Shown here one piece after another: positions 3,094 to 37,567 of a stretch of DNA of 64,000 bases. The DNA comes from Pirellulales bacterium (lineage in GTDB: Bacteria; Planctomycetota; Planctomycetia; Pirellulales; Thermoguttaceae), in contig JAFGDS010000056.1 of NCBI GenBank assembly GCA_016931995.1, positions 1-64,000 on the forward strand, in the 5' to 3' direction. Numbering within the stretch: the first letter of the stretch is position 1; each line of letters opens with the position of its first letter. The translations under genes and the position numbers were made by a program. The notes beneath the pieces were generated by a model, which was not told the DNA's origin, did no database searches, and saw nothing but the letters and a program-made list of their open reading frames with translations.

Positions 3094-4767
3094 TCACCAC
3101 GTCGCCAGGGCGTCGGTTTGATCGGACGTGCCGCCGAGCGACTCGCGCGTGAAACCGGGCCCCCACGGGCTTAGGTCCTTCCAGTATACTCGCCGCGGTG
3201 GCGTCGCGGTAGCGTCGATCACCACTTCCGTTCGTGCCACGGCGCGGGAATCATCGAAGAATCCGATCAATTGCGCCCGGTACACGTCCCCACCCGCCGT
3301 AAGCCAGGGCAACGCGGTCTTCATCGTGTCGAGCGTGATGAGCCCCTCGGTCAAGAGCCACGTGGGATGGCGGCGCGCGGGATCCACCGACGTGTCGCCG
3401 CGCGAGGGCCGCGTGGCCACGATTTGCGCCACGGTCGCCTCGTCCAGACCCGGCACGCCCAGGAGAACCTCGCGCGGGGCCGCGTTCACGTTCACCTGGC
3501 CGCGGAGCACCGACTCGGCCGTGACCGCGGTTTCGTCGAGCAGCTTGGGCAGGTAGTCGGCCATCTGGATCGGGTCGTTGGCGAAGGGACTGGGCACGCG
3601 CGCGGGCGGCTGGGGGCCACGGGCGGGCAGTGCCACCCATGCGTCCACCAGATCGAGCACCGAGTCGAGCTTCACCTTGGCCGGCACGGAGAAATCCAGC
3701 CGCACGTCCGCGGGCTCGGTCGACGACGCGGCGCCCGCGCCGCCGCCCGCGCTCGGCGCATCCGTCGCGACACGGCCGCCGTATTGCCGGTAGAGGATGA
3801 TGAATCGGGCCCAAGTCTCGTCGATCCGACCAGCCAGTTCGCGATGGACCTTGGCCAGATCGTCGTCGTTCAGGTTGACGCGGGGTTTTCCTGCCGGATT
3901 CACGTTGCGCCGCGCGCCGTGGAGCGTCACGAGCGTTGCCCAGGGCGGGCCGTCGCTTGAAGAGCCCTGGGGCGCCTCGCTGGGTTCAATTTGGTAGTTG
4001 TGGTTCGCGTCCGCGCCAAAGAGCCGCCCGCGGGTTACGCCCTTCACCAACAAGAGTTCCTCGACGCAGCCGGGCACGGCATTGCGCGGGGCATAGGGCA
4101 CGTCGGCGCCGGCGTAGGCGTCGGCCTCGGCGCCAAAGGGCCGCGGCGACGAATCGCCGTCCATCCAGTCGAGAATCGCGTCGGCCACGGCCTCGGTCAT
4201 GCCGGGCAGATTCATCAGGGCCGCCCGGGCGGCGCCGGGCGCGCGGCGTTCCCAATCGGGCAGCGCCGCCAGGTTCAGCCTGGCCGACTCGTCGGCAAGT
4301 CCAAAGCGAATCCCTTCCGATCCGTCTTCCGGGCCGCGCGGCGAGACGACGCTGAAGCGGCCCCGATGCCGCGACCGTTCCTCGCCCAGCACGAGCACGC
4401 CGCGGAACCAGGCCGCGTTGTCGTACGCGCCGCCAGCGGCCTGCCGCGCGTCTTCCGAGAGATCGAGCATCGCCTGCACCGACGCCTCGGCCGAGCCCAC
4501 CAGACATTGCGCCTCGAGCTCCTCGCCCCGCAAATGCACCGCCTTGTTCTCGGTTGACATGAGCCCAACGAAGCTCATCGCCGTGAGGCTCAACATGGCC
4601 GCGACCACGAGCACGACGATCAGCACGAAGCCCCGCGGGCGAGACGGGACCGCGTCTCTCCTCTCCCGCCTGTACGCGAGGGGCGTCGGGCAGATACCTC
4701 CCTTCTCCCGCAAGCGGGAGAGGGGAGATAGGGCGTTGGTGATCGTTCTCGGTAAAACGTCCATCAT
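3094..4767 (-). CDS. gspK: Type II secretion minor pseudopilin GspK
   Basis: A 557-residue GspK, the large tip pseudopilin that, with I and J, starts pseudopilus assembly. The prepilin peptidase site is RPRG|FVLIVVLVV; as is usual in GspK there is no Glu at +5. The following region contains the T2SSK helix-hairpin-helix segments (NLAALPDWERR, LMNLPGMTEAVADAILDWMDGD) and a second one near VNVNAAPREVLLGVPGLDEATVAQI. The start chosen is the ATG at 4767, whose ATGA overlaps the gspJ stop; an ATG at 4800 is possible. The leader before the cleavage site is 46 residues, far longer than normal, because a palindromic repeat has been translated in frame (residues about 13-35). Confidence 0.88.
   Translation of the reverse strand: MMDVLPRTITNALSPLSRLREKGGICPTPLAYRRERRDAVPSRPRGFVLIVVLVVAAMLSLTAMSFVGLMSTENKAVHLRGEELEAQCLVGSAEASVQAMLDLSEDARQAAGGAYDNAAWFRGVLVLGEERSRHRGRFSVVSPRGPEDGSEGIRFGLADESARLNLAALPDWERRAPGAARAALMNLPGMTEAVADAILDWMDGDSSPRPFGAEADAYAGADVPYAPRNAVPGCVEELLLVKGVTRGRLFGADANHNYQIEPSEAPQGSSSDGPPWATLVTLHGARRNVNPAGKPRVNLNDDDLAKVHRELAGRIDETWARFIILYRQYGGRVATDAPSAGGGAGAASSTEPADVRLDFSVPAKVKLDSVLDLVDAWVALPARGPQPPARVPSPFANDPIQMADYLPKLLDETAVTAESVLRGQVNVNAAPREVLLGVPGLDEATVAQIVATRPSRGDTSVDPARRHPTWLLTEGLITLDTMKTALPWLTAGGDVYRAQLIGFFDDSRAVARTEVVIDATATPPRRVYWKDLSPWGPGFTRESLGGTSDQTDALATW
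4652..4735. repeat. Palindromic repeat inside gspK leader region (family G)
   Basis: Contains inverted arms built on CTTCTCCCGCAAGCGGGAG and a CTCCC-rich flank. It is read in frame as LSPLSRLREKGG and the residues after it, within the N-terminal leader of GspK. The same CTCTCCCGCTTGCGGG core occurs at 12384-12411, showing that it is a dispersed repeat rather than native coding sequence. Confidence 0.8.
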
Positions 4768-5960
4768 CGACGTCCTCCCGGCGAATCGGTCCGCAGCCAC
4801 TGGTCCGGGTTCAGTCGCGCGGGCGCCGGCGAGTCTCGACGTGGCGCCGGAGGCAGCGGCAGCGCGTTGGGGCGCAATGGCGCGGGCAGCGCGGGAACGG
4901 GCAACGTCGCGCGACGCGTGCCCAGGGACCCTGCCGGGCGTTTCACGCCCGGGTGCGCGGCGGCGGTGCCCAACTCGACCACGAGGCGGTACGTGCGGCG
5001 ACGATCCGGCAGAACCGGCTCCGCCTCGCCCTCCATCTCGACCGCGTCCGGCCCTTCGGCGCCGACCACGTCGACCTCTTCATCGTGGCTGTTTGCCGCC
5101 ATCGCCGCGCGCCGCAGGTCGCGGGGGTCGAACGACTCGATCTCGACGCGGACCTCGATCGCCACCGGCAGCGATCGGCGGGCAATGCTGTCCCACTCGC
5201 TCGTCCAACCCTGACCGTCGAAATACCGGAACTCCAGGCCGACCACCTCGGGCAACCACTGAAGCGAAGGGTCGTCCTCCGGCCCGACAACGTCGCGACC
5301 AGCCGAGGAAGGAGACAGTCCCATTTTCGCCGGCGCGAAAATCGGGACAGTCCCCCGTGCGCGGTCGGACTCGCGCGGTTGGCTGGAAGTTTGGAAATCC
5401 CACTCGCGGCGGAAGAGGCCGGCGCGATGGGGAAGCGGGTCGTCCTCGGATTCCGCGGCCGGCGCGGCGGGCGATGGTTCTTCGCCGATTTCCTCCGGCG
5501 AGACGAACGTGTAGTGGATCGTCCGCAGCTCGGGCACTTCGGAGCCGGGACGATCCGACGTGGACTCACCGAGGACTCCGTCGCGAGCGGGCAGCGCCAG
5601 CGTCTGCTCGGGTGTGATCGCCATCACGTCCAGACGCAGCTCCCGCGACGTGCCAAAGAGGCCGAAGCGGCGGACGGCGGCGTCCATCTCGAAGGCGACC
5701 GTCGCCCCGGCCGCGTCGCTCGCCCCGGCCAGCCGCGCCGGCGCGGGCGGTTCCTGGATCGCGCCGGCCAGATCGGCGGCCATCTGCCCAAGCAGCGATC
5801 GGGCGAACTGGGACTGTTCCGTCCGGGCCTTGCCCATCTCGAACAGATCGGCATACGTGCTCATGAGTCCCCATAGCATCACCATGAGCGTGCTGGTGAG
5901 CACGGCGGCGATGAGCACCTCGACCAGGGTGAAGCCCGGACGCCCGTGAAGTGCGTTCAT
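4764..5960 (-). CDS. gspJ: Type II secretion minor pseudopilin GspJ
   Basis: A 398-residue protein with a short leader and the prepilin motif RPG|FTLVEVLIAAVL (Glu at +5). A hydrophobic helix of about 20 residues follows, then a periplasmic beta-rich domain with many acidic residues, typical of GspJ/PulJ although longer than the usual 200-240 residues. Part of the excess is an in-frame palindromic repeat (residues about 202-217, read as GTVPIFAPAKMGLSP), and the C terminus is Pro-rich and low in complexity. It overlaps gspI (4 bp) and gspK (ATGA), so the pseudopilins are translationally coupled. It acts in the pseudopilus tip with GspI and GspK. Confidence 0.87.
   Translation of the reverse strand: MNALHGRPGFTLVEVLIAAVLTSTLMVMLWGLMSTYADLFEMGKARTEQSQFARSLLGQMAADLAGAIQEPPAPARLAGASDAAGATVAFEMDAAVRRFGLFGTSRELRLDVMAITPEQTLALPARDGVLGESTSDRPGSEVPELRTIHYTFVSPEEIGEEPSPAAPAAESEDDPLPHRAGLFRREWDFQTSSQPRESDRARGTVPIFAPAKMGLSPSSAGRDVVGPEDDPSLQWLPEVVGLEFRYFDGQGWTSEWDSIARRSLPVAIEVRVEIESFDPRDLRRAAMAANSHDEEVDVVGAEGPDAVEMEGEAEPVLPDRRRTYRLVVELGTAAAHPGVKRPAGSLGTRRATLPVPALPAPLRPNALPLPPAPRRDSPAPARLNPDQWLRTDSPGGRR
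5312..5354. repeat. Palindromic repeat within the gspJ coding sequence (family F)
   Basis: A near-perfect inverted repeat: arms built on GACAGTCCCATTTTCGC and GCGAAAATCGGGACAGTC surround a CGGC centre. It is in frame and open in gspJ, giving the peptide TVPIFAPAKMGL. GTVPIF peptides of this kind recur as repeat-derived insertions in planctomycete proteins (recalled, not searched). Confidence 0.8.
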
Positions 5961-6505
5961 GGCGCGCCCTCCTCGTCGGAGCTGGTGGGCGGCGAAAAGG
6001 GCTCGGTCACGAAGCCGCCGTCCGTCGACTTCGCGCCGGCCAACGGATCGCGAATCCAGCGCACCAGCGCAAACGATCGGGCGCGGGGCTTCTCCTCTTC
6101 ATCGAGCACCTCTTCGGCCGCGGTCACCGTGAGCGCGGCCAGGCCCGGGCGGCCTGTGGGCGCCACGTCGACCGAGACGAGCCAGCCGGGCATTTCGGGC
6201 AGGGGCGCTTCGGCGGTCGATTCGGCCGGCGCGGCCCCGGCAAGGATCTCGTTGAGCTTCGACTGGCACGCCAACTGCGCGACGGCCAACTCGTCCGCCG
6301 ATTCGGCATGATCCCGCCCGATCTTCGCCAATCGCGACAACACCACCACGCACCCGGCTAACAGGGCCAGAGCCACGAGGACCTCGAAAAGAGAGAAGGC
6401 GCCGCGGGCACGTCGCGTGCCAGTGACACTCCCGCCCGCACTGGCACAGCCAGGGGCACTCTCCGGCACGGGCGGAGCCAGTGGCACTCTTGAAGGAACG
6501 ATCAT
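5957..6505 (-). CDS. gspI: Type II secretion minor pseudopilin GspI
   Basis: A 182-residue protein with a class III prepilin motif ARGA|FSLFEVLVALALLAG followed by a hydrophobic helix and a small periplasmic domain, as in GspI. With Glu at +5 the residue before the cleavage site is Ala36 rather than the usual Gly; Gly35 is the alternative. The ATG at 6505 is part of an ATGA overlap with the end of gspH. The leader is 36 residues, several times the normal 5-8, because residues 6-30 are encoded by a family A palindromic doublet. It is expected to nucleate the pseudopilus tip with J and K. Confidence 0.86.
   Translation of the reverse strand: MIVPSRVPLAPPVPESAPGCASAGGSVTGTRRARGAFSLFEVLVALALLAGCVVVLSRLAKIGRDHAESADELAVAQLACQSKLNEILAGAAPAESTAEAPLPEMPGWLVSVDVAPTGRPGLAALTVTAAEEVLDEEEKPRARSFALVRWIRDPLAGAKSTDGGFVTEPFSPPTSSDEEGAP
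6414..6489. repeat. Family A doublet translated as the GspI leader
   Basis: The right arm (about 6467-6489) carries CGGAGCCAGTGGCACTC, the inverse of the common GTGCCACTGGC arm. The left side (from 6414) and a central CACTGGCACAGCCAG are degenerate relatives. The whole block lies between the gspI start codon and its prepilin cleavage site and is read without stops. Confidence 0.8.
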
Positions 6506-7311
6506 GGCTTGGGCTCCGGCGCGACGAGCCCGGCGTCGGTGGGCTCAGGCTGCCAGGGCTTGCCGATTCGGGCGATGCCGACCAGGCCCCGCAACGTCAC
6601 ATCCACCATGCGGTTGTCCACGCCCACCAAGCGGAGCCGCGCGGACGTGCACCGACCGTTGGGAAAGAAGAGGATCGGCCGGGGGCCATCGTCGGCCGCG
6701 GACGCCGCGACGAGCGAGACGTTGGTCTCGGACCACGCGGAGGGATCGGACGCCACGTCCGTCGCCGGAAGCGTTTCTTCCCCGGGAAACAGTTCGTCGA
6801 CCGCATCGGGGTCGAGGAAGCGGACGCCGTGCGGCAACTGGCCGTCGAGCGGCTCCTCCTCGGGAACGTCTTCCTCGCCGGTCGTCGCGGTCGCCGACGA
6901 GTCGTCTGCTTCCGTCGAAAGCGGCGCGGCGTGGAATCGTCCCGATCCCGTCTGGAACCGGAACACCCAAGCCCGGCCCGACTCGATTGCCCGAATTCGC
7001 GTCTTTGCCAGGGTGATGCGGAGCTGATTGGCCGCGTCTTCCAGCCGGGTTTTGCCCCAGGGCGCGCGGAGCGAGGGCCAGGCCAGCGCGATCAGAAGCG
7101 AGATCACGCCCAGCACGACGAGCATTTCGACAAGCGTGTAGCCGGCCGGGTAGCACTGCTGGCTTGCGCAGCAGTGTTGGCGTCGCTGCTGGACAAGCCA
7201 GCCGCGGCGCCCAACCCGGCGGCCGAGACGCGCCGTGCTACTTGTTGCTCGACCTCGTCTTGCTCGTGGGCGCCGGCGACGCGCTCGTGCCGCTCTTTGT
7301 GTCCACGCCAT
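6502..7311 (-). CDS. gspH: Type II secretion minor pseudopilin GspH
   Basis: Carries the prepilin motif PAG|YTLVEMLVVLGVISLLIAL and a periplasmic domain with LEDAANQLRITLAKTRIRAIE, a typical GspH start. It is the adaptor pseudopilin between the GspG shaft and the tip complex. No ATG, GTG or TTG lies close to the cleavage site in this frame; the only start I can find is the ATG at 7311, which overlaps the end of gspG by 74 bp and gives a 57-residue leader. The segment just before the cleavage site (WLVQQRRQHCCASQQC) is encoded by a family B palindromic repeat. The true start therefore remains uncertain. Confidence 0.8.
   Translation of the reverse strand: MAWTQRAARARRRRPRARRGRATSSTARLGRRVGRRGWLVQQRRQHCCASQQCYPAGYTLVEMLVVLGVISLLIALAWPSLRAPWGKTRLEDAANQLRITLAKTRIRAIESGRAWVFRFQTGSGRFHAAPLSTEADDSSATATTGEEDVPEEEPLDGQLPHGVRFLDPDAVDELFPGEETLPATDVASDPSAWSETNVSLVAASAADDGPRPILFFPNGRCTSARLRLVGVDNRMVDVTLRGLVGIARIGKPWQPEPTDAGLVAPEPKP
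7154..7202. repeat. Family B palindromic repeat at the gspG/gspH junction, inside the GspH leader
   Basis: CACTGCTGGCTTGCGCAGCAGTG-type arm (7154-7176), a short spacer, then CTGCTGGACAAGCCAGC (7186-7202). The same arm types form a complete doublet at 17621-17712. It is translated in frame just upstream of the GspH cleavage site. Confidence 0.8.
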
Positions 7312-7780
7312 CCTCGTCCTCGGCCTTCCTCCAACTGACGATGTCGTCTTCGGTGTCGTCCTCGGCGTCGGGGCCGTAGGACCAGATTTCCGGGTCCTTG
7401 CCCTTGCCGTGGGTGGGCGGATACTCGTATTGGTACTCGTTGCCCCAGGGATCGACCGGGATGGCCTCGTCGTTCAGGTACGGCCCGTCCCATCGCAAGG
7501 TCTTCGTTGTCTCGCTGTCGGTCTCCTCTGGCTCCTCGACCAGCGCGACGAGTCCTTGCTCGGTGGTGGGGAAGTCGTTCATGTCCAAGGCGTAGCGCTC
7601 GAGCGCGGCCTTGAAGCCGCTGATTTGCGTGACCGCCGCGTTCACGTCGGCCTTCTTCTTCGAGCCGAGCACCTTGGGCAGGACCAATCCCGCCAGGAGC
7701 ACCAGAATCGCCATGACGACCAGGACTTCGACCAGCGTGAAGCCTCGCCGCGCCGGACGGCGTCGTTGCGTGTTTTGCAT
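7238..7780 (-). CDS. gspG: Major pseudopilin GspG
   Basis: A 180-residue protein with a normal 13-residue leader and the motif RRG|FTLVEVLVVMAILVLLAG. Its C-terminal T2SSG domain carries the hallmark YALDMNDFPTTEQGL, WDGPYLNDEAIPVDPWGNEYQYEYPP and calcium-site region of major pseudopilins. It polymerises as the pseudopilus shaft that pushes substrates through the secretin. The ATG at 7780 follows AAAGGATC, a good ribosome binding site, and 32 bp separate it from gspF. The acidic tail after the core (EDDTEDD onward) is longer than in most GspG and ends in a Ser/Thr/Lys-rich stretch. Confidence 0.95.
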   Translation of the reverse strand: MQNTQRRRPARRGFTLVEVLVVMAILVLLAGLVLPKVLGSKKKADVNAAVTQISGFKAALERYALDMNDFPTTEQGLVALVEEPEETDSETTKTLRWDGPYLNDEAIPVDPWGNEYQYEYPPTHGKGKDPEIWSYGPDAEDDTEDDIVSWRKAEDEDGVDTKSGTSASPAPTSKTRSSNK

Positions 7781-7812
7781 CGTGCAATGATCCTTTCGTA
7801 AAGGGTTGTGCG

Positions 7813-9021
7813 CTAGTTCATCGCGGAACTCATATCGAAAACGGGCAGCAGCAGGGCCACCATCACGAATCCGATCAGGCAACCCATCACCAGGAGCATC
7901 ACCGGCTCGACCATGCGGACCATGACGTCCAATTGCCGGCTCGTCTTCCGGTCGATGCCGTCGGCGACGTTGATCAGGACCTCGTCGAGATTGTTCGACT
8001 CCTCGGCGATGGTGATCATGGCCATGATCGACCGCGGGAACAGCCCGCACGCGGCCAACGGCTGCGCCAGCCGCTCGCCCGAGGAAATGTTCTCGGCCGA
8101 GGCCCGAATGGCTTGGGCCAACACGACGTTGCCGGCCGATTCGCTGCTGATCTGGAGCGATTTCAGGAGGGGGACGCCGTTTTTGAGGAGCGTGCCCAAC
8201 ACGCGGCAAAAGCGCGACAAGGCGGCGCCCAGGAAGATGGGACCGACCAGAGGCAGCTTGATTTTCGCGCGGTCCACCAGCGCCCGCCCTCGGGGCCGCG
8301 CGGCCGCCGCGCGGAGCCACGCCACGAGGCCGCCGACGGCCATGAGGACCAGAACGCCATAGCGGCCCAGGAAATCGCTGATGGCCAGGAGAATCACCGT
8401 CGCCGCCGGCAGCCCGCCCTCCTGTTCCAACCGGGCGAACAGCTCGGAGAACTTCGGCACGAAGAAGACCAGAAGCGCCACGGTGACGATGGTTCCGGCC
8501 GCGGCCAGAAACGCGGGATAGAACATCGCGCCCGCCACGCGGCTCTTGATTTCCTCCTGGCGTTCGAGGAAGTCGGCCGTGCGCTTCAAGGCGTCTTCCA
8601 GAAAAGCGCCTTCCGCGCCGGCGCGGACCATGCTCACGGTCAGCTCGCCAAACGTGCCTGGATGTTTGGCCATCGCCGCGTCCAGCGCGGCGCCCTCGGC
8701 CACGCGGTCGCGGACGTCGACGAGGATCTCGGCCAGTTGGGGATGGGCCGCCTGCGCGGCCAAGACGTCGAGCGACCGCAACAGCGGCACGCCGTTTTGC
8801 AGCAAATCGGCAAGCTGGTTGAGTGTGTTGGCCACGAGGGCCGTCTTCACCCGCCGGCGCGGCCGCCACCACGCCCGGGTCGGCGTTGCGTCCTCCACCC
8901 GCAAGGGGAAAAGCGCCTTCTCCGCCAGCGCGCTGAGCGTTTCCTGCCTGCTGCCGGCCGTGATCGTGCCGACGATGTCCTCGCCCCGGGCGGTTCGGGC
9001 TGTGTAGGTGAACTGAGGCAT
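7813..9021 (-). CDS. gspF: Type II secretion inner-membrane platform protein GspF
   Basis: A 402-residue polytopic platform protein that couples ATPase motion to pseudopilin extraction. It begins MPQFTYTARTARGEDIVGTI, the typical GspF/PilC N terminus, and holds two repeated T2SSF domains (about 70-190 and 270-395). Three transmembrane helices are visible, near 170, 220 and 375. Conserved segments include LADLLQNGVPLLRSLDVL and FCRVLGTLLKNGVPLLKSL. The ATG at 9021 was chosen over a frame extension to 9126 because it matches the family start. It lies 190 bp downstream of gspE, the gap being filled largely by a 27-nt-armed inverted repeat. Confidence 0.94.
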   Translation of the reverse strand: MPQFTYTARTARGEDIVGTITAGSRQETLSALAEKALFPLRVEDATPTRAWWRPRRRVKTALVANTLNQLADLLQNGVPLLRSLDVLAAQAAHPQLAEILVDVRDRVAEGAALDAAMAKHPGTFGELTVSMVRAGAEGAFLEDALKRTADFLERQEEIKSRVAGAMFYPAFLAAAGTIVTVALLVFFVPKFSELFARLEQEGGLPAATVILLAISDFLGRYGVLVLMAVGGLVAWLRAAAARPRGRALVDRAKIKLPLVGPIFLGAALSRFCRVLGTLLKNGVPLLKSLQISSESAGNVVLAQAIRASAENISSGERLAQPLAACGLFPRSIMAMITIAEESNNLDEVLINVADGIDRKTSRQLDVMVRMVEPVMLLVMGCLIGFVMVALLLPVFDMSSAMN

Positions 9022-9080
9022 GGGGGAACGGTTGGGGGCAAGGGAACGAATTCGGCGAACGCATGCCAGCAGTAGCGCCT

Positions 9081-9152
9081 TGTGGGAGGCGACTCCCGTC
9101 GCCGATTGCCCGTCAATCAAGCTCAAATCGGCGACGGGAGTCGCCTCCTACA
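9081..9152. repeat. Long inverted repeat (family H) between gspE and gspF
   Basis: Arms 9081-9107 and 9126-9152 (27 nt each) are built on GGAGGCGACTCCCGTCGCCG and its reverse complement, around an 18-nt loop. The arms match apart from one position. There is no T-run, so it is more likely a dispersed repeat or mRNA stability element than a terminator. Confidence 0.85.
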
Positions 9153-9211
9153 AATCTGGATTCAACCAATTTCTTCCCGCGCGGCGCATTGTCTTTCTCC
9201 GCGATACGCGA

Positions 9212-10909
9212 TCAATCCGCCTTCGTCACGCGGAGCACTTCATCCACGGAGGTTTTGCCGTCGAGCACCTTGCGCCAGCCGTCCACGCGGAGCGTTCGCA
9301 GGCCCGCCCGCATGGCGGCCTGTTTGATGATGTTGGACCCGACGCGTTGGCTGGCCAGCTCGCGGATTTCGTCGTTGGCCACAAGCAATTCGTAGATGCC
9401 CACGCGCCCGGCGTAGCCCGTCTGGCGACATTGCCGGCAGCCCACCGGGCGATGGATCCGCTTGCCCTGCTGAAGAACTTCGTCCAGGGGGAAGTCGGGT
9501 GGAACGTCCTCTTGGCGGGGAAGAAACGCTTCGCGGCACTCCGGGCAGAGCGTGCGCACCAGCCGCTGGGCCATCACGCCCTCGACCGTGCTGCTGACCA
9601 AAAACGGCTCGACGCCCATGTCGATCATCCGCATGAACGCGCCGGCCGCGTCGTTGGTGTGCAGCGTGCTGAAGACCAAGTGTCCGGTGAGCGAGGCCTG
9701 CACGGCGTTCTCCGCCGTCTCCAGGTCGCGGATCTCGCCCACCAACACCACGTCCGGGTCGTGCCGCAAAATGCTCCGCAGGCTGGCCGCGAACGTCAGG
9801 CCGACCTTGGCGTGGACCTGGATCTGGTTGATCCCCTCGAGCTGGTACTCGATCGGGTCCTCGGTCGTGATAATCTTGGTCTCTTCGTTCTTGATCTCGT
9901 TCAAGGCGCTGTAGAGCGTCGTGGTCTTGCCCGACCCGGTCGGGCCGGTGACCAGAATGATCCCGTGGGGAAGTTGGATCAAACGTCGAAACATTCCGTA
10001 GGTGTCTTCGTCCATGCCGATGCCGCGCAGCGAGAACTGCATGCGGTCCTTGTCCAGCACGCGCATGACGATGCCTTCGCCGTGCAACATGGGAATGATC
10101 GACACCCGCACGTCCACCTCGCGGCCGGAGACCTTGAGTTTGATCCGCCCGTCCTGCGGCACGCGCTTCTCCGCGATATTCAGCCGGGCCATGATCTTCA
10201 GACGGCTGAGGATCGCGGCGCGGAAGCGGTTCAACTCCGTCGGGATCGGCTGCTTCTGCAAAACGCCGTCAATGCGATAGCGGAGCTTGAGCCCGTGCGC
10301 CTGCGACTCGACGTGGATGTCGCTCGCCCGGGCTTCGACCGCTTCCTCGAGAATTTCGTTCACCAAGCGGACGACGGAGGCCTGCTGGGCCATCTCCGCC
10401 GCCTCGGATTGGTCCCACTCGACGTCCTCGAGCATCTCGACGTTGCCCTGCCGCGCGGCGTCCCGCGCCATCAGGCCGTCGATCGTCTCCGCGCCCACGC
10501 CCAGGTGCGTCTTGACGAGCTTGGCCAGCTCGGCCGGCAGGGCCAACACCGGCAATACGCCCATGCCCGTGGCCGCGCCCACCGCGTCCAAGGCGTGCAG
10601 GTCGAAGGGATTCCCCGTCGCCACCACAAGGGAGGTCTTCTCCCGGCGAATGGGGAAGACGCCGTGGCGGTGGATCAGCTTCAACGGGAACGACTCGAGC
10701 AGCGAAAGATCCACCTCGACCTTGGCCAGATCGATCAGCTCCAGGCCAAGCATCCGGCCGACCGTGGCCAGAGCCTCTTCCTCGGTGTCGCATCCGAGTT
10801 CCGGGGCGACCAGGCCCAGGTGGCCATCGACCGATTGAGCCTCGCGCGCCAATCGGAGTTGGCGCGAGTCCAGCTTCGCCCGGTGGGGCAGCGTCCGCGC
10901 AATAATCAT
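9212..10909 (-). CDS. gspE: Type II secretion ATPase GspE
   Basis: A 565-residue traffic ATPase that powers pseudopilus assembly from the cytoplasm. It has an N-terminal GspE/MshEN domain (about 20-150) and then the ATPase core with Walker A GPTGSGKTTT, Asp box TTEDPIEYQLEGINQIQV, Walker B DPDVVLVGEIRD and His box TGHLVFSTLHTNDA. A zinc-binding four-cysteine module (CPEC then CRQC) lies near the C terminus, as in GspE and PilB. The ATG at 10909 (MIIARTLPHRAKL) matches the family; the frame extends upstream to 11242 without homology. As the first gene of the cluster it probably follows the operon promoter. Confidence 0.96.
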   Translation of the reverse strand: MIIARTLPHRAKLDSRQLRLAREAQSVDGHLGLVAPELGCDTEEEALATVGRMLGLELIDLAKVEVDLSLLESFPLKLIHRHGVFPIRREKTSLVVATGNPFDLHALDAVGAATGMGVLPVLALPAELAKLVKTHLGVGAETIDGLMARDAARQGNVEMLEDVEWDQSEAAEMAQQASVVRLVNEILEEAVEARASDIHVESQAHGLKLRYRIDGVLQKQPIPTELNRFRAAILSRLKIMARLNIAEKRVPQDGRIKLKVSGREVDVRVSIIPMLHGEGIVMRVLDKDRMQFSLRGIGMDEDTYGMFRRLIQLPHGIILVTGPTGSGKTTTLYSALNEIKNEETKIITTEDPIEYQLEGINQIQVHAKVGLTFAASLRSILRHDPDVVLVGEIRDLETAENAVQASLTGHLVFSTLHTNDAAGAFMRMIDMGVEPFLVSSTVEGVMAQRLVRTLCPECREAFLPRQEDVPPDFPLDEVLQQGKRIHRPVGCRQCRQTGYAGRVGIYELLVANDEIRELASQRVGSNIIKQAAMRAGLRTLRVDGWRKVLDGKTSVDEVLRVTKAD

Positions 10910-12383: not shown

Positions 12384-12411
12384 GACCCCTCTCCCGCTTG
12401 CGGGCGAGAAG
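12384..12411. repeat. Short dispersed palindrome (family G)
   Basis: CCTCTCCCGCTTGCGGGCGA core, the same as the repeat inside gspK. It lies just after the end of the downstream ABC permease gene and could serve as a 3' mRNA hairpin, though no T-run follows. Confidence 0.65.
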
Positions 12412-12419
12412 CGTGGTCC

Positions 12420-14696
12420 CTACAACCCCAGCGGCTCGTCCTCGGCCTCGATGCCGCGCTGGATGGCCTCTTGAAGGCGTTCTTCCTCCGTCTTCTCGTA
12501 GCGGAGCCGGCCGAACCACGTCAGAATCATGAGCGCGAGCACGACGGCCAACACGACCAGGGGCAATTTGTAGCAGGCGAACGCGCCATCGGGTCCGCGA
12601 CGGACGATGAAGTTCAAGAATGGCGACTCGTTCAGGAGTCCCGGCGTGATCTGCGCGGCGGTCAGGGCCAGCGCGTTGTGCGTCGCGTGGTACACAATGC
12701 ACGGAATGAGGCTTCCCGTTTGCACGGCGAGGAAACCGAGCACCACGCCCATCAAGCACGCGCTGATGGACTGTTGCAGAATCCCGTGCGCGAACCCGAA
12801 GAACACCGCCGAGAGCACAATCGCCCGCCACTTGCGTCCCACGTGACGGAAGCCGGAGAGGATGAACCCGCGGAAGGCCAGCTCTTCACACAACGCGGGC
12901 AGCACCGCGGCGATTAACAACAACTGCCAGAAATCGGGCGTCTGCCCCATGAGGTTTTTGAATGACGCCTCGACTTCCTTGGTGACGGGATAGAGGTCCA
13001 CGATCGCCACGCTGATGGCCATGGCCACGGGATGGAGCACGACGGCCAACACGGCCGCCGCCGCCACGGCCAGCGGCAACTCCGCCCGCCACGACCGCCG
13101 ATCCAGAAGCAACGTTCGGCTGGGACGGTTCGTGAAGAAGATCGTCATCAGCAAGGCCGGCGTGGCGATCACAACCAACTGCGTCGCGATGGCCGCCTTG
13201 GCCAGGCCAACGAAGTCCGTTGGCTCCGGCATCGCCAGACCCACGAAGAATTTGACCACGAGAATGAGCACGCCGCAGAAGGCCGCCGCGGCCACCGTGG
13301 GCGTGGGCTGTCGGTCGCGCAGGAGATGACGAAGCCAAAGCCCCAGGTCGAGTCGTTCGCTCTCGCGAAACAGCACCGATTCCTTGTTGAATTGATCGAC
13401 CGCCCAGCGAATCGCCAGCAGGCAGCCCACCAGCGTGACGCCCACCACGGGCAGGACGTACCGCAGCGCCTCCTGGTAGTTTCCTTCGAGCGTGCTCCGC
13501 AAAAGCAGAACCACGTTCGTGACGGGGATGAGGCTATTGCCCAGCGTAAGCGTGACGCCCGGGGCCAAAGGGAAAATGGCCAACGGCATCGTGACGAGCA
13601 ACAGCGGCATCAGGTAGTATTGGCCTTCCTTCGTGCTCTTGGCGAAGGCCGCCAGCGCCAGGCAAAGCGCGCTAAACAGGGCCGAGACGGGCAGCAACGC
13701 CAACAGCAGCCAAATAATCGAGGTCCAGGGCGGCGCCCCCAGACCCGGCAGCTTGGCCATGATGAGCCAACCGGTCAGGCCGATGCTCGCCAGGTTCAAG
13801 ATCACCGTCACGACGCTGAAGAGCATCACGGTCACCAGCTTGCCCAGGACGATCTCGCTCCGCTCGGCCGGGCTGCTCAAGAGCGTTTCGAGCGTGCCGC
13901 GCTCTTTCTCGCCGGCGCACAGGTCCACCGCGGGGTAGAACGCCCCGGTCAGGGCCCAAAGCAGGAGCATCACCGGCAGGATCTTCGACCAGATCGCCGT
14001 GCCGCGGTTGCCGGTCTGGCTGGCCAGGTCCGCGGTTCCCAGATCGAACGGCCGGGCGGTCTCCGGCGCGACGCCCGCGGCGGCCAGGTTGCGTTTGCCC
14101 ACTTCTTCCGACCACCGCCGCAGCACCTTTTGCAGCCGGACGAACGTGATCTGCGACCGCTCGTTGGCCGTGGTGAAAATGATTTCCGGCTTGGGCACCG
14201 CCGGCAGCGCCGCCGGCGCGGTCTTGGTCTTCTTTCCCTCGGACGGTTCGCCCGAGGCCGCCGCGAGGCTGGCCTCGCGGAATTCCTCGAGGCGCTCGGC
14301 GAAATCGGGTGGAATGTAGAGCGCGGCGTCGTACTCCCTCGACGTCACGGCCTCGTGCGCCCGCTCGAGCGGATCGACCCGCACGGCCCGCGGCCCCAGC
14401 GGTTCGCTCGGCTCGAACACCAACTCGAGGAGGTCCGCCTTATCCGGCTCGTCGAAAAGCTCCGGCGCAAAGCGTTCGTTGACCACCAGCGGCGGCTCCT
14501 CGGCCAGATGCCGCGCGCCGACGACGAGCACCCGCGTGGGCTGCTCCTTCATGAACTGGGCAACCTGGAAGAACGTCATGCCCAATAGCGGGTAGAGCAG
14601 GATCGGCAACACGACGATCATGAACAACGTGCGGCGATCGCGAAGCTGGTCGCGGATCTCCCGGGCGAGGATGAGCCTGACGTTCGACCAGCTCAT
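12420..14696 (-). CDS. NatB-like ABC-2 permease fused to a CPBP (CAAX-type) intramembrane protease
   Basis: A 758-residue membrane protein. Residues 1 to about 430 form an ABC-2 permease: an N-terminal membrane helix ([13 protein letters not shown]), a large extracytoplasmic domain, then helices with the [15 protein letters not shown] signature typical of NatB-type exporters. Residues about 460-740 add a CPBP protease module with EELAFRG, the FAHG segment and HATHN, the expected metal-ligand motifs of type II CAAX proteases. Its start overlaps the stop of the ATPase gene (ATGA), so the two are a co-translated exporter. Substrate unknown; NatAB relatives export sodium or peptides. The joint chain suggests that proteolysis and export act on one substrate (inference). 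Confidence 0.85.
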
Positions 14697-15451
14697 GGCG
14701 CCACCTCGTCCGCGCGGTCGTGGTCCAAAATGAGCTGGAAAAACAGCTCTTCAAGGTCCTGCTCGCCGTGCGCCTCGCGCAGGGCGTCCAGCGGCCCTTC
14801 GGCCAGGACCTTGCCGCGGTGGATGATGGCCGCGCGGTCGCAGAGCTTCTCCACCTCGCGCATGATGTGCGTCGAAAAGATGATGCACTTGCCCTGATCG
14901 CGCAGCTCGGCCACCGTGTTCAACAGGGCCCGGGCCACAAGCACGTCCAGGCCCGCCGTGGCTTCGTCGAAGATGACCACGGGCGGATCGTGAATGATCG
15001 ACCGGGCGATCGACACTTTCTGCTTCATCCCGGTCGACATCTTCGCGCCCAACAGGTCGCGGATGTCGTTCATCTGGAGCCGCGCGAAAAGGGTCTCCAT
15101 CCGCTCGCGCAGGCGTTCGTCCTGGATGCCGTGCAGCCGGCCGAAGTACTCGACCATCTCCCAAGCCGTCATCCGGTCGTACACCGCCGTGTTGGCCGAC
15201 ATGAAGCCGATCTGGTGGCGGACCTGCGACGATTGGGTCAGGACGTCGTAGCCGTTGACCGTCGCCCTGCCCGAGGTGGGCTTGAGCACCGTGCTGAGGA
15301 CCCGCAAGGCCGTGGTCTTGCCAGCCCCGTTGGGACCCAAGAGGCCGTAGATCTCCCCCTGCCTGGCACGGAAACTGATTCCGTCGAGCGCAACCAACCG
15401 GCCGCGGCGGAGATCGGCGTAGTGCTTGGTCAGTTGGTCGACGACGATCAT
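14693..15451 (-). CDS. ABC transporter ATPase, NatA-like
   Basis: A 252-residue ATP-binding subunit for the permease encoded just downstream. It has Walker [10 protein letters not shown], a Q-loop near QIGFMSAN, the signature segment [18 protein letters not shown] (STGMKQ in place of LSGGQ, as in NatA-type proteins), Walker [13 protein letters not shown] and switch His FSTH. The ATG at 15451 ([11 protein letters not shown]) fits the family; an earlier ATG at 15475 adds only eight basic residues. The stop overlaps the permease start by 4 bp. Confidence 0.9.
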
Positions 15452-15480
15452 CGGCGCTCTCGCGTGTCGGCGCAATCCAT

Positions 15481-15569
15481 GTCATGCTGAGCGAAGCGAA
15501 GCATCTCGGAGGGCATCCAGCCGGATCCTTCGCTTCGCTCAGGATGACCGACGCTTCGCTCAGGATGAC
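15481..15569. repeat. Family C repeat (TGAGCGAAGCGAAG doublet plus half unit)
   Basis: GTCATGCTGAGCGAAGCGAA (15481) pairs with the inverse TTCGCTTCGCTCAGGATGAC (15529-15548), and a third half-unit ACGCTTCGCTCAGGATGAC follows (to 15569). Copies recur at 35342-35405, 43551-43580 and 48249-48312. Confidence 0.85.
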
Positions 15570-15642
15570 CGAGGTCCTGGGCCGCGTAGTGACGTTGTCA
15601 AAAACCCTTATGGAATTTTAGCTTACGTTGTTCCGACGGCGA

Positions 15643-17508
15643 CTAGCCGGCCGGCGGGTCCAACAGGCGGTAGAAGACGTCTCGTCGGCGGGGTTGGTAG
15701 CCGGCCTGCTCGATCGCCTGGCGGATCTCCCGCTCGCTTGCCCGAAACGACGTGCCCGCGGCCGCCACGACGTTCTCCTCGATCATCACGCTGCCCAGGT
15801 CGTTGGCCCCGAAACAAAGGGCCAATGGGCCGATCCGCAGACCCTGGGTGACCCAACTGGCCTGCACGTTGGCGAAGTTGTCCAGATAGAGACGGCTCAC
15901 GGCCAGCGTGCGGAGGTAGTCGAACGACCCGGCCTTGCCGAGGTGAGTCAGGCCGGTATGATCCGGTTGAAACGTCCAACCGATAAAGGCGGTAAACCCG
16001 CCGGTCTCGTCCTGCAACTGCCGCAATCGCTCGAGGTGCTCGATCCGTTCGGCGGGCGTTTCAACGTGGCCGAACATCATCGTGGCCGAGCCGCGTCCGC
16101 CCAGAGCGTGCCACTGCCGGCACACGTCGAGCCACCCTTGGGCCGAGACCTTTCCGGGGCTCAACTCGCCTCGAACGCGATCCACGAGGATCTCCGCGCC
16201 CCCGCCGGGCAGGCTGCCAAGGCCCGCCGCGCGAAGCCGCTCGAGCGCCTCGCGAACCGAGATGCCGGAAACCCGCGCTATGTGGTGGATCTCCGGCGGG
16301 CTGAACCCGTGGACGTTGATCGTCGGAAACTCCCGACGGATGTCCCCCACGAGCCGCTCGTACCAGTCAATTCTCAGGTCCGGGTGCAATCCGCCCTGCA
16401 GTAGAATCTGATCGCCGCCCAGCGCGATTGTCTCGCGGATTTTTTCAAAGAGCTGCTTCTGGGACAGAACGTACGCCTTTGGATCGTCTGTCGAGCCGCA
16501 CGAGAACGCGCAAAACCGGCATCCGCTCGTGCAGACGTTCGTGTAGTTGACGTTGCGATCGACGTTGTACGTGCGGTACGGCTCCGGATGAAGCTGCCGG
16601 CAAAGCGCGTCCGCCGCCCGGGCCAATGTCGGCAACTCCGTACACTCCATGAGCCGCAAGCCCTGCTCGGGCGAGAGCCGGCCGCCGGCCAGCACGCCGT
16701 CCAAGAGCGCGTCGAGCGACAAATCGACCGGCGCGGGCACGACCGGCGGCGTCTCGGGCACCAAGCCCATATGGAGGGCCAACCGACGAAACCGCTCCAG
16801 ACCCCGGCGTTCCCGCGGCCCCAAGCGAAACGCCAAATGCTCGCGGAAATACGCCCGGCAAGCCGCCTCGTCAATGCTCGCCGTGGGGGCCTCTTGCCGG
16901 GCGAGTTCGTCCAGATGGTCCATCGCCTCGTCGCGAACACCGTTGAATAATGCCGCGAGCGGCTCCGGGGCCACGTCCCGCCGCGCGATCCACGCGGCAA
17001 AGACGAACGGCAAGCCCGTCCACTCCTTCCACTTCTCGCCCAGATCCCAGATCTCGACGAACGACTCCTCCGGTGGGCGGAGGCCGGGGTCGCCGATCAG
17101 GAGCACCGCGTCCGCGTCCACGGCGCCAGGCGAACCGTCGATCGGAAGCGGCCGATACTCCGGCGCGAGCCCGAGCCGCCGGGCCAGCAGGATCCGCGTC
17201 AACGCGGCGCTGGTGCGCGAAGCCTCGTGCAACGCGACCGAGCGGATCTTCGAGGGCTCAACCCGAAAGAAAAGCTTCACGCTCTGGACCGGTCCGTCGC
17301 AGGCGATGCACGCGTCGGAGACGATCTGGTAGCCGTCCCCGCGAAAGAGTTCCACGGCGGGCACCAACGCCGCGTCGAGCCGCCCGGTGGCCAGGCCGTC
17401 GGCCAGACGGCTGGGCACGTCCATGGTGATCTCCGCGTCCGGGGCCCCGCGGCGCAAGCCCGCCACCAGCGGCCGGGAGTTCAGATAGGACACGGCCCCG
17501 ATCCGCAT
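15643..17508 (-). CDS. mqnA/mqnC: Fused menaquinone enzymes: chorismate dehydratase (MqnA) + cyclic dehypoxanthinyl futalosine synthase (MqnC)
   Basis: A 621-residue chain of two enzymes from the futalosine route to menaquinone. Residues 1 to about 260 match MqnA (MRIGAVSYLNSRPLV, DAALVPAVELF, FAAWIAR), which converts chorismate to 3-enolpyruvylbenzoate. Residues about 270-621 match MqnC, a radical SAM enzyme that cyclises dehypoxanthine futalosine. It has the CxxxCxxC cluster motif CTSGCRFCAF after NVNYTNV, and the late motif TGGFTAFIGWTFQPDHT that sets MqnC apart from MqnE. The two steps are not consecutive in the pathway. The ATG at 17508 was chosen because MqnA proteins begin MRIGAVSYLN; an ATG at 17544 is possible. 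MqnB, MqnD and MqnE are not in the window. Confidence 0.9.
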   Translation of the reverse strand: MRIGAVSYLNSRPLVAGLRRGAPDAEITMDVPSRLADGLATGRLDAALVPAVELFRGDGYQIVSDACIACDGPVQSVKLFFRVEPSKIRSVALHEASRTSAALTRILLARRLGLAPEYRPLPIDGSPGAVDADAVLLIGDPGLRPPEESFVEIWDLGEKWKEWTGLPFVFAAWIARRDVAPEPLAALFNGVRDEAMDHLDELARQEAPTASIDEAACRAYFREHLAFRLGPRERRGLERFRRLALHMGLVPETPPVVPAPVDLSLDALLDGVLAGGRLSPEQGLRLMECTELPTLARAADALCRQLHPEPYRTYNVDRNVNYTNVCTSGCRFCAFSCGSTDDPKAYVLSQKQLFEKIRETIALGGDQILLQGGLHPDLRIDWYERLVGDIRREFPTINVHGFSPPEIHHIARVSGISVREALERLRAAGLGSLPGGGAEILVDRVRGELSPGKVSAQGWLDVCRQWHALGGRGSATMMFGHVETPAERIEHLERLRQLQDETGGFTAFIGWTFQPDHTGLTHLGKAGSFDYLRTLAVSRLYLDNFANVQASWVTQGLRIGPLALCFGANDLGSVMIEENVVAAAGTSFRASEREIRQAIEQAGYQPRRRDVFYRLLDPPAG

Positions 17509-17544
17509 GAGCCGCGGCCCGACGTCTTCCTTCGCGCTCGCCAC

Positions 17545-17902
<358 letters not shown>

Positions 17903-24281: not shown

Positions 24282-27200
24282 GCAAGCCCTTGGCCCACCG
24301 CGACGATCTGAACCGCCTGCGCGATCGGCTCCGCGCCGAGGCCCAGGCGCAAAGCCAGAATCACCACAAGCGGATCCGCGTCTGCATGGGCGCCAGTTGC
24401 ATCGCCTCGGGCGCCCAACGCGTCAAGGCCGCGATCGAGGCGGAGCTGGTCCAGCGCGGTCTCGGGCGCAACGTTTCCGTGATCGACACGGGCTGCCTGG
24501 GTCCCTGCTCGGCCGGTCCGGTCATCATGGTGGACGAGGTCTTCTATGAAAACGTTCGTCCCGCCGACGCCGTCGAGATCGTCGCCGAGCACGTCGCCAA
24601 GGATCGCGTGGTGGAGCGGCTCACGCACAAGCGCCCCGACGGCCGCGCCATCCCCACGGCCGCCGAAATGGACTTCTTCAAGCGTCAGACGAAGATCGTT
24701 CTGCGCAACTGCGGCCGGATCGATCCACTGCGGATCGAGGACTACATCGCCGTCGACGGATACCAGGCCCTGGCCACGGTCCTGTCGAACAACAACCCAG
24801 ACGCGATCATCGAGACGCTCAAGGCCTCCGGCCTTCGCGGGCGCGGCGGCGCCGGCTTCCCCACGTGGATGAAGTGGAAGTACACCCGCGAGGCACACGG
24901 CGACCTCAAACACGTCGTCTGCAACGCCGACGAGGGCGACCCCGGCGCGTTCATGGACCGCAGCGCGCTCGAGGGCGATCCCCACAGCGTCATCGAGGGC
25001 ATGGCCATCGCCGCGCACACGATCGGCGCGTCGTCGGGCTACATCTACGTTCGGGCGGAGTATCCGCTGGCCGTCGAACGGTTGAAGATCGCCCTGGCGC
25101 AGGCTCGAGAATACGGTCTCCTTGGTAAAAACATCCTCGGCAGCGGATTCGACTTCGAGTTGGAGATCCGGATGGGCTCCGGGGCCTTCGTCTGCGGCGA
25201 GGAGACGGCGCTTCTGACCTCGATCGAGGGCAATCGCGGCGAGCCGCGGCCCCGCCCCCCGTTTCCCGCCCAAAAGGGCCTCTGGGGACGGCCCACCTCG
25301 CTCAACAACGTCGAAACCTACGCCAACGTGCCGGCCATCCTCCTCAACGGCGGCGACTGGTACGCCCAATACGGCACGGCGAAGAGCAAGGGCACGAAGG
25401 TCTTCGCCCTGGCCGGCGCCATCAAAAACTCCGGCCTGGTCGAGGTGCCCATCGGCATGTCGTTGGGCGACTTGATCTACGACATCGGCGGCGGCATCCC
25501 CGACGGCAAACAATTCAAGGCCGCGCAGATCGGCGGTCCCTCGGGCGGGTGCATCCCGCGGCAGCACCTCAACGTGCCGTTGGACTACGAGTCGCTGGCC
25601 GAGCTGGGGGCCATCATGGGCTCCGGCGGCCTGATCGTCATGGACGAGGATAGCTGCATGGTGGACGTTGCCCGCTTCTTCCTCGAATTCGTCCAGGAAG
25701 AATCCTGCGGCAAGTGCGTCCCCTGCCGCGTGGGCACGAAACGGATGCTCGAGATCCTCAATCGCATCTGCGCCGGCCACGGAGAGGAAGAGGACGTCGA
25801 ACGGCTCATCGAACTGGGCGAGATGATCAAGGACTCCTCGCTGTGCGGCCTGGGGCAAACCGCGCCGAACCCCGTGCTCTCGACCATCCGCCACTTCGGC
25901 AACGAATACGTCGAGCACATCCGCGACCGGCGGTGCCGCGCGGGCGTGTGCGCGGCGCTGGTCAACGCGCCCTGCTCCAGCGCCTGCCCAGCCACGGTGG
26001 ACATCCCCGGCTACGTCTCGCTCGTCGGCGAGAAACGCTACGCCGAGGCGCTGCGCCTGCACCGCGAGCGCAATCCGTTCGCCGCGATCTGCTCCCGCGT
26101 GTGCTTCCACACGTGCGAGGAAAAGTGCCGCCGCTCGACGCTGGACGCGCCCGTGTCGATCCGCGCGATCAAGCGGTTCATGGTCGATCAAGAGGTCACC
26201 ATGCAACTGCCCGAAGTCCGCGAAAACGAGCGAAACGCCGCGCGCCGCGTGGCGATCATCGGGGCCGGGCCGGCGGGCCTGTCCTGCGCGTACTTCCTGG
26301 CGCGGCTGGGCTACCGGCCGCGCGTGTACGAGGCCGAGCCACGGCCCGGCGGGATGCTCGTCCAGGCCATCCCCGCCTACCGCCTGCCCCGCGAGGTCGT
26401 CGCCCGCGAGATCCGCATGGTCGAAAACCTTGGCGTCGATATCCTCACCGACATGTCGCTGGGCCGCGATTTCACGCTCCGCTCGCTCCGCGCCGAAGGC
26501 TGCGAGGCCGTGTTCCTGGCCGTCGGCGCGCCGTTGGGCGTGGGGCTCAATATCCCCGGCGCCGAGGCGGAAGGCATCACCGACGCCCTGTCGTTCCTGC
26601 GGATCTACAACCTCCGCGGCTCCGTGCCGGTCGGCAAACACGTGGTGGTGATCGGCGGCGGCAACTCGGCCATCGACGCCGCGCGGTCCGCCGTCCGCCT
26701 GGGCGCCGAAAGCGTCACGGTCGTCTACCGCCGCAGCCGCGAGGTCATGCCCGCCTATAAGGAAGAAATCGAAGAGGCCATGGCCGAGGGCGTCATCCTG
26801 CGGCTCCTGACCGCGCCGGTCGAGGTGCTCACCGAGGGCAAGCGCGTGGTGGGGCTGAAGTGCCAGTCGATGCGGCTGGGCGAGTTCGACGAATCCGGCC
26901 GACGCCGGGCGGAGGAGGTGGGCGACACGTTCGTCCTGCCCACCGACCACATCCTCGTCGCCGTCGGCCAGACGCTCGATCCGCAAAAAATCTGTGACGG
27001 CGAGGCGCTCGAAACCCGAAACAAAACGTTCATCAAAGTCGATCCCGTGACGGGTCAGACCTCGACGAAGTGGATCTTCGGCGGTGGCGACATGGTCACC
27101 GGCCCCTCGAGCGTCGTCGAGGCCGTGGCGGCGGGCGAACGCGCGGCTGCGGGAATCGACGAGTTCTTGACCGGCGAGAATCACGCCTTCTGGCGGGTCG

Positions 27201-27451
27201 AGCGGCCAGTCGATACGTTCTTCGACCCCGACGCCGAGCCTTCCGACGTCGCCCGCGAGAAGCTTACCATGATCCCGGTCGAGCGGCGGCGCAACAATTT
27301 CGACGAGGTGGAACAGCCCTGGCGCGAGGCCGTGGCCGTGCGGCAGGCCCGCCGCTGCCTCCGCTGCGATTACGGCAAGCGCTGCCAGTGCGAGACCCCG
27401 GCGGTCCCGGCCCACGCCGGCAGCATCGCCGACGACGCCGCGTCAATGTAG
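24278..27451 (+). CDS. hydB: HydB (NuoF-like) fused to GltD/NfnB-like NADPH oxidoreductase (set 1)
   Basis: A 1057-residue flavoprotein made of two electron-transfer units. Residues about 30-120 are a thioredoxin-like [2Fe-2S] domain (CMGASC, CLGPCS). About 150-560 is the NuoF core: FMN/NADH motif GLRGRGGAGFPTWMKW, NADEGDPGAFMDR, and the [4Fe-4S] site ESCGKCVPCRVGTKRM with a distal Cys in SSLCGLGQTAPNP. About 570-1020 is a GltD/NfnB unit: Fe-S ligands CSSACP and CSRVCFHTCEEKC, FAD motif GAGPAGLSCAY and NADPH motif GGGNSAIDAARSA. The tail has CLRCDYGKRCQC. Ordinary HydB ends in a two-cluster ferredoxin domain; here the GltD unit takes its place. NuoF-GltD fusions are known from Sporomusa-type transhydrogenases, so coupling NADPH to H2 metabolism is plausible (inference). 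Confidence 0.93.
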   Translation: MSKPLAHRDDLNRLRDRLRAEAQAQSQNHHKRIRVCMGASCIASGAQRVKAAIEAELVQRGLGRNVSVIDTGCLGPCSAGPVIMVDEVFYENVRPADAVEIVAEHVAKDRVVERLTHKRPDGRAIPTAAEMDFFKRQTKIVLRNCGRIDPLRIEDYIAVDGYQALATVLSNNNPDAIIETLKASGLRGRGGAGFPTWMKWKYTREAHGDLKHVVCNADEGDPGAFMDRSALEGDPHSVIEGMAIAAHTIGASSGYIYVRAEYPLAVERLKIALAQAREYGLLGKNILGSGFDFELEIRMGSGAFVCGEETALLTSIEGNRGEPRPRPPFPAQKGLWGRPTSLNNVETYANVPAILLNGGDWYAQYGTAKSKGTKVFALAGAIKNSGLVEVPIGMSLGDLIYDIGGGIPDGKQFKAAQIGGPSGGCIPRQHLNVPLDYESLAELGAIMGSGGLIVMDEDSCMVDVARFFLEFVQEESCGKCVPCRVGTKRMLEILNRICAGHGEEEDVERLIELGEMIKDSSLCGLGQTAPNPVLSTIRHFGNEYVEHIRDRRCRAGVCAALVNAPCSSACPATVDIPGYVSLVGEKRYAEALRLHRERNPFAAICSRVCFHTCEEKCRRSTLDAPVSIRAIKRFMVDQEVTMQLPEVRENERNAARRVAIIGAGPAGLSCAYFLARLGYRPRVYEAEPRPGGMLVQAIPAYRLPREVVAREIRMVENLGVDILTDMSLGRDFTLRSLRAEGCEAVFLAVGAPLGVGLNIPGAEAEGITDALSFLRIYNLRGSVPVGKHVVVIGGGNSAIDAARSAVRLGAESVTVVYRRSREVMPAYKEEIEEAMAEGVILRLLTAPVEVLTEGKRVVGLKCQSMRLGEFDESGRRRAEEVGDTFVLPTDHILVAVGQTLDPQKICDGEALETRNKTFIKVDPVTGQTSTKWIFGGGDMVTGPSSVVEAVAAGERAAAGIDEFLTGENHAFWRVERPVDTFFDPDAEPSDVAREKLTMIPVERRRNNFDEVEQPWREAVAVRQARRCLRCDYGKRCQCETPAVPAHAGSIADDAASM

Positions 27452-27479
27452 ACACGAGAAGGGAAGGACGGGGAGGACG

Positions 27480-27584
27480 CCACAGATGAACACAGATAGA
27501 CACAGATGGAGTGCCGCCACGTCGCGTTCATCCCCCTCGAATCCCCAATTCATCTCATCCGTGCTCATCTGTGTTCATCCGTGG
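27480..27584. repeat. Family D inverted repeat between hydB and hydA (set 1)
   Basis: CCACAGATGAACACAGATAG (27480) with a further ACACAGATG, and the inverse CATCTGTGTTCATCCGTGG (27566-27584). It fills most of the 180-bp gap inside an otherwise tightly packed operon. The same type of repeat occurs at 45810-46156. Confidence 0.88.
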
Positions 27585-27631
27585 TTTTCCATTCCCAATA
27601 GCGCCGACGATTTCGTCCCCGAGGACTTACG

Positions 27632-37346: not shown

Positions 37347-37361
37347 TGACGGTATGAGAGA

Positions 37362-37497: not shown

Positions 37498-37567
37498 CAT
37501 CTCTTTCCGATGTCCCTTGCGCGTGCGGTAAACCTCGTTCGCGTACTCTCAACCATGGATTTTGCTT

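Follow-up and report, generated by a model that had tools for sequence, protein, structure and literature searches.

Dispersed palindromic repeats in the predicted prepilin leaders of type II secretion pseudopilins in a Pirellulales bacterium

Palindromic elements inside genes and class III leaders

Palindromic repeats that lie inside bacterial reading frames are already known from the REP and RPE elements; their concentration in the cleaved class III leaders of prepilin-type genes, described here, appears to be new. In Rickettsia, the RPEs form several families of palindromic elements found in frame inside unrelated genes; they measure about 150 bp and encode a conserved peptide (PMC10969869, in part). 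REPs are high-copy palindromes, mostly intergenic and either single or paired, some of which lie inside ORFs, where in several species they are commoner at the N-terminus than at the end (PMC3733652, section 15 for the latter). Genes for Y1 transposases can be flanked by REPs or by terminal inverted repeats (the RAYT and TIRYT types; PMC3733652, in part). Class III leaders are hydrophilic, cytoplasmic segments of variable length that end in Gly or Ala and are removed by the prepilin peptidase (PMC10191384, in part), and those of the type IV pilins of S. sanguinis have 8–18 residues (PMC6497953, in part). A literature search by title and abstract found no paper linking such repeats to prepilin or other leader peptides.

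The window, that is, the whole stretch of 64,000 nucleotides analysed here, carries on its minus strand a type II secretion operon, gspE-F-G-H-I-J-K, in which three pseudopilin leaders contain palindromic repeats. Like the RPEs, to which we liken them by behaviour only, these repeats comprise several palindrome families lying in frame inside unrelated genes; unlike them, the units are shorter, the families are unrelated and they are concentrated in leaders predicted to be cut off. They resemble REPs in being present in high copy number and mainly intergenic, with some copies in ORFs. However, the GTAG/CGTC end tag is absent from the consensus copies of families A and B as judged by eye (the B copy in gspH has GTAG at one of its ends), and sections 15 and 16 of PMC3733652 contain neither translation from overlapping starts nor a link to prepilin leaders. 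As in the class III leaders of type IV pilins, the leader is of variable length and ends in Gly or Ala, but in contrast to those of S. sanguinis it reaches 57 residues where just one start is possible and up to about 90 when counted from overlapping starts, and consists partly of dispersed repeats.

The operon and its repeat families

The genome is a draft of 5.43 Mb in 153 contigs. GspE, GspF, GspG, GspJ and GspK were identified by Pfam, GspH and GspI solely by NCBIfam matches below the curated cut-offs together with operon position; several pseudopilin NCBIfam scores lie below these cut-offs. The pseudopilins of the window show the hallmarks of a class III signal peptide, namely Gly or Ala followed by a hydrophobic stretch, usually with Glu at +5. 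GspG, GspH and GspJ match N_methyl, GspI was recognised by NCBIfam and motif, and GspK by T2SSK, its sequence lacking Glu5. A prepilin peptidase is present, with Peptidase_A24 above its cut-off at three places in the genome.

Table 1. Pseudopilin genes, leaders and repeats of the operon, and the second operon of the same genome. Positions refer to the window unless another contig is given.
Feature	Position	Strand	Remarks
gspG	7238..7780	-	13-residue leader without repeat
gspH	6502..7311	-	ATG 7311 inside gspG; next in-frame ATG/GTG/TTG only at codon 63
GspH leader, apparent 57 residues	7141..7311	-	ends AG^YTLVEM
Family B palindrome, two inverted hairpins, in GspH leader	about 7147..7214		
gspI	5957..6505	-	ATGA overlap: start in gspH stop
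GspI leader, 36 residues	6398..6505	-	ends GA^FSLFEV
Family A palindromes in GspI leader	about 6437..6492		
gspJ	4764..5960	-	ATGA-overlap start; 9-residue leader without repeat
Family F palindrome, in frame, gspJ variable linker	about 5311..5355		
gspK	3094..4800	-	listed from GTG 4800; ATG 4767 is the start overlapping the gspJ stop
GspK leader, 46 residues from ATGA start at 4767	4630..4767	-	ends RG^FVLIVV
Family G palindrome and second, imperfect copy, in GspK leader	about 4655..4728		
gspG-H-I-J-K run (L046), T2SS-like	G000:C46:95000-108000, about 5062-9514		same genome

A recount bears out the leader lengths of the original prediction (13 residues in GspG, 57 in GspH, 36 in GspI, 9 in GspJ and 46 in GspK). 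Its claim that the long leaders are largely encoded by repeats holds in that each contains a different palindrome (B in GspH, A in GspI and G in GspK), but these encode the leaders only partly. It was also correct that the same repeats have further copies in the window (B at 17684-17714, G at 12386-12404 and A at many places), as they do genome-wide. The fourth family, F, does lie in frame within gspJ as predicted, and no second copy of it was seen in the window. The linker that holds it varies in length among nine aligned orthologues. Between gspF and gspE, outside genes, the window also contains a long palindrome of the GGAGGCGACTCCCGTCGCC type (9080-9158).

Across the genome, family A occurs at 402 + 405 places (free 3-base loop, at most one mismatch) and family B at 82 + 85 places (at most two mismatches), with no match for the reversed-pattern control of either. 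A sample of 697 kb, in which a custom codon-usage caller found 499 genes covering 82% of the DNA, contains 230 copies of families A, B, F and G; 197 are intergenic, 31 lie in called genes and two at edges. The repeats of the type II secretion leaders count as intergenic in this tally because the caller trims repeat-bearing leaders. Family F amounts to 24 half-elements in the same sample (window included), 11 of them within called genes.

Outside the secretion operons, F or A is read in frame in the genes of L090, L077 and L210, which we take to be a PLP-type enzyme, a YgiQ-like protein and a methylase-like protein, respectively, and in two proteins of L206, presumably PEP-CTERM-like. Family F lies in frame and away from the N-terminus at L090 18307-18376, L210 2235-2304 and L073 2962-3007, in apparent enzymes and a membrane protein. 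The two L206 proteins (13577-15712 and 15721-17670) are neighbours whose C-terminal tails behind the anchor are built of family A repeats. In-frame capture thus happens in mature proteins too, and tolerance of the repeats is not unique to leaders.

Prepilin leaders in related operons and genomes

We compared 19 operons from 18 genomes, giving 71 junctions, each defined as the segment from the previous stop to the cleavage site. The junction table leaves out G044 (L045), a second member of the genus of G012, and G019 (L049), whose later genes were unassignable; GspK of G005 and G027, GspH and GspI of G051 and GspI of G018 are missing from it owing to a contig end or because no motif was set. 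Junctions of at least 25 bases were searched against samples of 35–400 kb per genome. Two or more matches elsewhere in the sample of their own genome were found for 11 of the 71 junctions: GspH, GspI and GspK of the window, GspI, GspJ and GspK of a second type II secretion operon in the same genome (L046), GspH, GspJ and GspK of G013, GspJ of G057, and gspI of G002, whose repeat stays uncaptured ahead of a leader of normal, short length. GspK of G065 and GspH of G057, with one match each, were excluded from the positives. In whole-genome searches the GspK leader of G002 gave 28 further matches and the GspI leader of G037 gave 53, and the long leaders of GspJ in G007 and GspK in G038 had no other match in their own genomes; sample-based negatives therefore carry little weight, since two of four turned positive. 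Cases are known in this way from three further genera beyond this genome and its nearest relative.

This relative, G013, is the closest found among 100 family members searched (GspG identity 67%); the genome set searched held no second genome of the same genus. GspI bears a repeat here and has a repeat-free leader of 7 residues in G013, while GspJ has 9 residues here and a repeat there. GspH and GspK are repeat-bearing in both genomes, with unrelated families. The GspK leader of G013 (L032, from 5122) shows an F-like palindrome apparently split by an unrelated palindrome, D, as if by nested insertion. Within our own genome the second operon has repeats in the leaders of GspI, GspJ and GspK, and none in GspH; its GspJ leader consists in part of an array of about six family A units. 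The result that would have refuted the original prediction, the same long leaders in the orthologues, was not found: these differ in leader length (5 to 141 residues) and sequence. Long leaders shared by descent from an ancestor are ruled out by these differences.

When families A, B, F, G and D are searched with lax patterns, 9 of the 71 junctions in the 19 operons match, compared with 0.7 of 71 on average in shuffled sequences, which rules out chance resemblance; as the patterns were derived from the two genomes that hold these nine, the figure speaks for non-randomness and is no independent discovery. In the mature parts of the 71 genes the same patterns matched in 9 genes, mostly as single arms. 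We judged these to be chance matches except for the paired arms in gspJ of the window, the one clear repeat in the mature part of these genes.

A similar concentration emerges within the 697 kb. There, 49 genes have an in-frame start overlapping the upstream stop, and five of them have a palindrome within their first 110 codons. Four belong to the secretion operons, namely GspI and GspK in operon 1 (the operon of the window) and GspI and GspJ in operon 2; the fifth, L089, lies near Tad, T2SSF and T2SSE genes and is itself TadE-like, with a Pfam TadE match (E 0.0023) that falls below the cut-off. This corresponds to 5 of 7 prepilin-type genes versus 0 of 42 others (Fisher 1.1e-5, post hoc, two genes relabelled by hand), or to 4 of 7 versus 1 of 42 with the script labels unchanged (Fisher 7.8e-4, post hoc). 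The relabelled genes are L083, a motif match that by eye is no prepilin, and GspK, which lacks Glu5 and is a prepilin by profile. Leaving out the prepilin genes of operon 1, which had been the original pointer, and keeping the other genes of the window, the ratio is 3 of 4 versus 0 of 42 (Fisher 2.6e-4, post hoc). At the level of sequence, the recurrence of unrelated repeats at these positions in several genera is established, as is their concentration in the prepilin-type genes of the sampled DNA.

These observations are probably best explained by short non-autonomous palindromes that multiplied in this and related genomes, moved most likely by Y1 (HUH) transposases, and were kept in prepilin leaders that are discarded. 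The elements, whose transposases would be of the RAYT or TIRYT kind, are strongly depleted in coding DNA, and the stretch between start codon and peptidase site of a prepilin gene would tolerate them, as a cytoplasmic leader that is loosely constrained in length and sequence and then removed. The mature pseudopilin would remain unchanged by an open-frame insertion because the leader is cut off. Where a gene starts inside the upstream stop (ATGA), an element would have nowhere intergenic to land; one inserted just behind the ATGA start would join the leader and be retained only if in frame and free of stops.

A rival account, which we consider rather unlikely and which overlaps with this explanation instead of excluding it, holds that the leaders of this family are long and fast-changing anyway, the repeats being incidental additions to a part that can be dispensed with. 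The start rule used does give median leaders of 18 residues in GspH, 20 in GspI, 28 in GspJ and 40 in GspK (18, 17, 19 and 17 loci), and two of the four long leaders searched in whole genomes are free of dispersed copies. However, repeats occupy 6 of 8 type II secretion junctions of this genome versus 49 of 311 other codirectional gaps (Fisher 4.4e-4, post hoc), and GspI minus its repeat would, on our reading of the sequence, keep a leader of roughly ordinary length.

Start codons and possible mobilisers

Whether the repeats belong to the leaders depends on where translation begins. Each of gspI, gspJ and gspK opens with an ATG in an ATGA overlap of 4 bases with the upstream stop, and the repeats lie behind these starts. 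Overlaps of the ATGA type (with ATG, GTG or TTG as start) occur in 11 of 17 gspI, 12 of 19 gspJ and 13 of 17 gspK loci, which suggests that the arrangement is old in this operon. The gspH gene differs: its sole available start is found within gspG, 74 bases deep and in a different frame. As no in-frame ATG, GTG or TTG occurs after codon 1 until codon 63, translation of gspH, if it takes place, begins within gspG.

In none of the nine repeat-bearing type II secretion leaders of this genome and G013 does a start codon follow the complete repeat ahead of the cleavage site; with ATG, GTG or TTG as start, translation of these nine would take in at least a part of every repeat. The upstream ATGA start is kept in frame in six of them (GTGA included). 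Starts inside the repeats do exist. In G013 an F-like repeat supplies ATG at -10 in GspH and at -14 in GspK, corresponding to leaders of 10 and 14 residues, and further candidates are GTG at -24 and -30 in GspI and TTG at -28 in GspK of the window, and GTG at -12 in GspJ of operon 2. In the TadE-like gene, an ATG follows the repeat.

Such starts leave some room for the repeats being mostly extragenic, with translation beginning inside or behind them, some elements donating the start codon (ATG from F-like repeats, GTG from A) and perhaps acting as mRNA hairpins that tune the amounts of the minor pseudopilins. Section 15 of PMC3733652 itself cautions that many REPs at the N-termini of ORFs may be untranslated, and some of the leaders form strong hairpins (z from -0.4 to -5.8 against mononucleotide shuffles in eight leaders). 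Folding is uneven among them, for which reason strong RNA folding was rejected as their common function. In GspH of the window and GspI of operon 2, the sole possible start precedes the repeat. A wrong choice of start as the full explanation is thereby ruled out for these two, and for the remaining leaders it is weakened by the overlapping starts; altogether we regard an extragenic role as improbable. The open frames are weak evidence one by one, as a single leader stays open by chance with a frequency of 0.2-0.7 in shuffles, given the chosen start and frame. The product of these chances was discarded as evidence because one uncaptured case and hand-picked frames enter into it.

It is very doubtful that gspH was damaged by the insertion of B, its own start being lost and the protein no longer made, or that its real start is masked by an error in sequencing: at the remaining 17 of the 18 loci an in-frame GspH start does follow the gspG stop, 57 residues is the second longest of the 18 shortest-possible GspH leaders and the assembly is a draft, but the 269-codon frame is intact and open through the repeat up to the ATG, matches GspH profiles and can be aligned with orthologues where the pilin region begins.

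The preferred reading, insertion of mobile palindromes followed by their capture in the leader, had been part of the original prediction. What stands of it, as far as the sequence goes, is that the repeats are present in frame between start and cleavage site, in open frames with kept ATGA starts, and are absent at the same sites in G013. Transposition as the cause, translation through the repeats, and normal targeting and cleavage of the resulting leaders are what we infer from this pattern. The label of a "clear case" of mobile repeats reshaping signal peptides goes beyond this; the pattern does recur in the second operon and in other genera, but there are also long leaders in which no repeat was found, starts inside repeats, and capture away from leaders.

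If elements of this kind are mobile, Y1 transposases are the candidates to move them. Our genome has seven Y1_Tnp matches, five of them apparently intact, and family A flanks both sides of two of these five (L192, L197) compared with 9 of 499 genes (Fisher 0.004, post hoc). No transposase could be tied to family B or G. One end of family F, GGGGACAG, fits the terminal inverted repeat motif GGGGWSAS given in PMC3733652 (in part), and the other, GGGGACTG, is one base off. L200, a Y1 gene of G013, has exact inverted repeats of 21 bases at its borders; 16 of these bases make up the two ends of the palindrome found in the leader of G057 GspJ, and the 19-base form of the repeat gave no match in the reversed control. 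TIRYT-type terminal repeats were found only for this G057 palindrome, via the Y1 gene of G013. The leader in question (L048, about 3860-3960) contains a near-perfect long hairpin, with paired copies in L152 and L058. A correlation of Y1 genes with repeat-bearing leaders from genome to genome was dismissed: Y1 matches occur in all five genomes with such leaders, this one (G000), G013, G002, G037 and G057, but also in 9 of the 13 others searched, and nothing follows from the presence of these matches.

More tentatively, class III leaders could be a general sink for mobile palindromes, in which elements of Y1 transposases accumulate at little cost because the leader is removed; they would then record successive invasions and grow with them, as the apparent nesting in the GspK leader of G013 illustrates, and the hairpins may secondarily set the ratio of the minor pseudopilins; we hold this broader view to be possible, with the balance tilted somewhat against it. 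If capture in leaders is real, it would offer selfish DNA a way into protein-coding genes through a stretch that is translated and then thrown away, which predicts insertion sites to look for in other genomes. It would also make testable how long or odd a leader can become before targeting or the prepilin peptidase fails. Gene callers based on codon usage will mis-start such genes, as seen with our custom caller for gspH, gspI and gspK.

Elsewhere in the window, the regions 24819-29269 and 36253-39355 share several segments that are 74-79% alike in conserved order and probably represent paralogous gene clusters.
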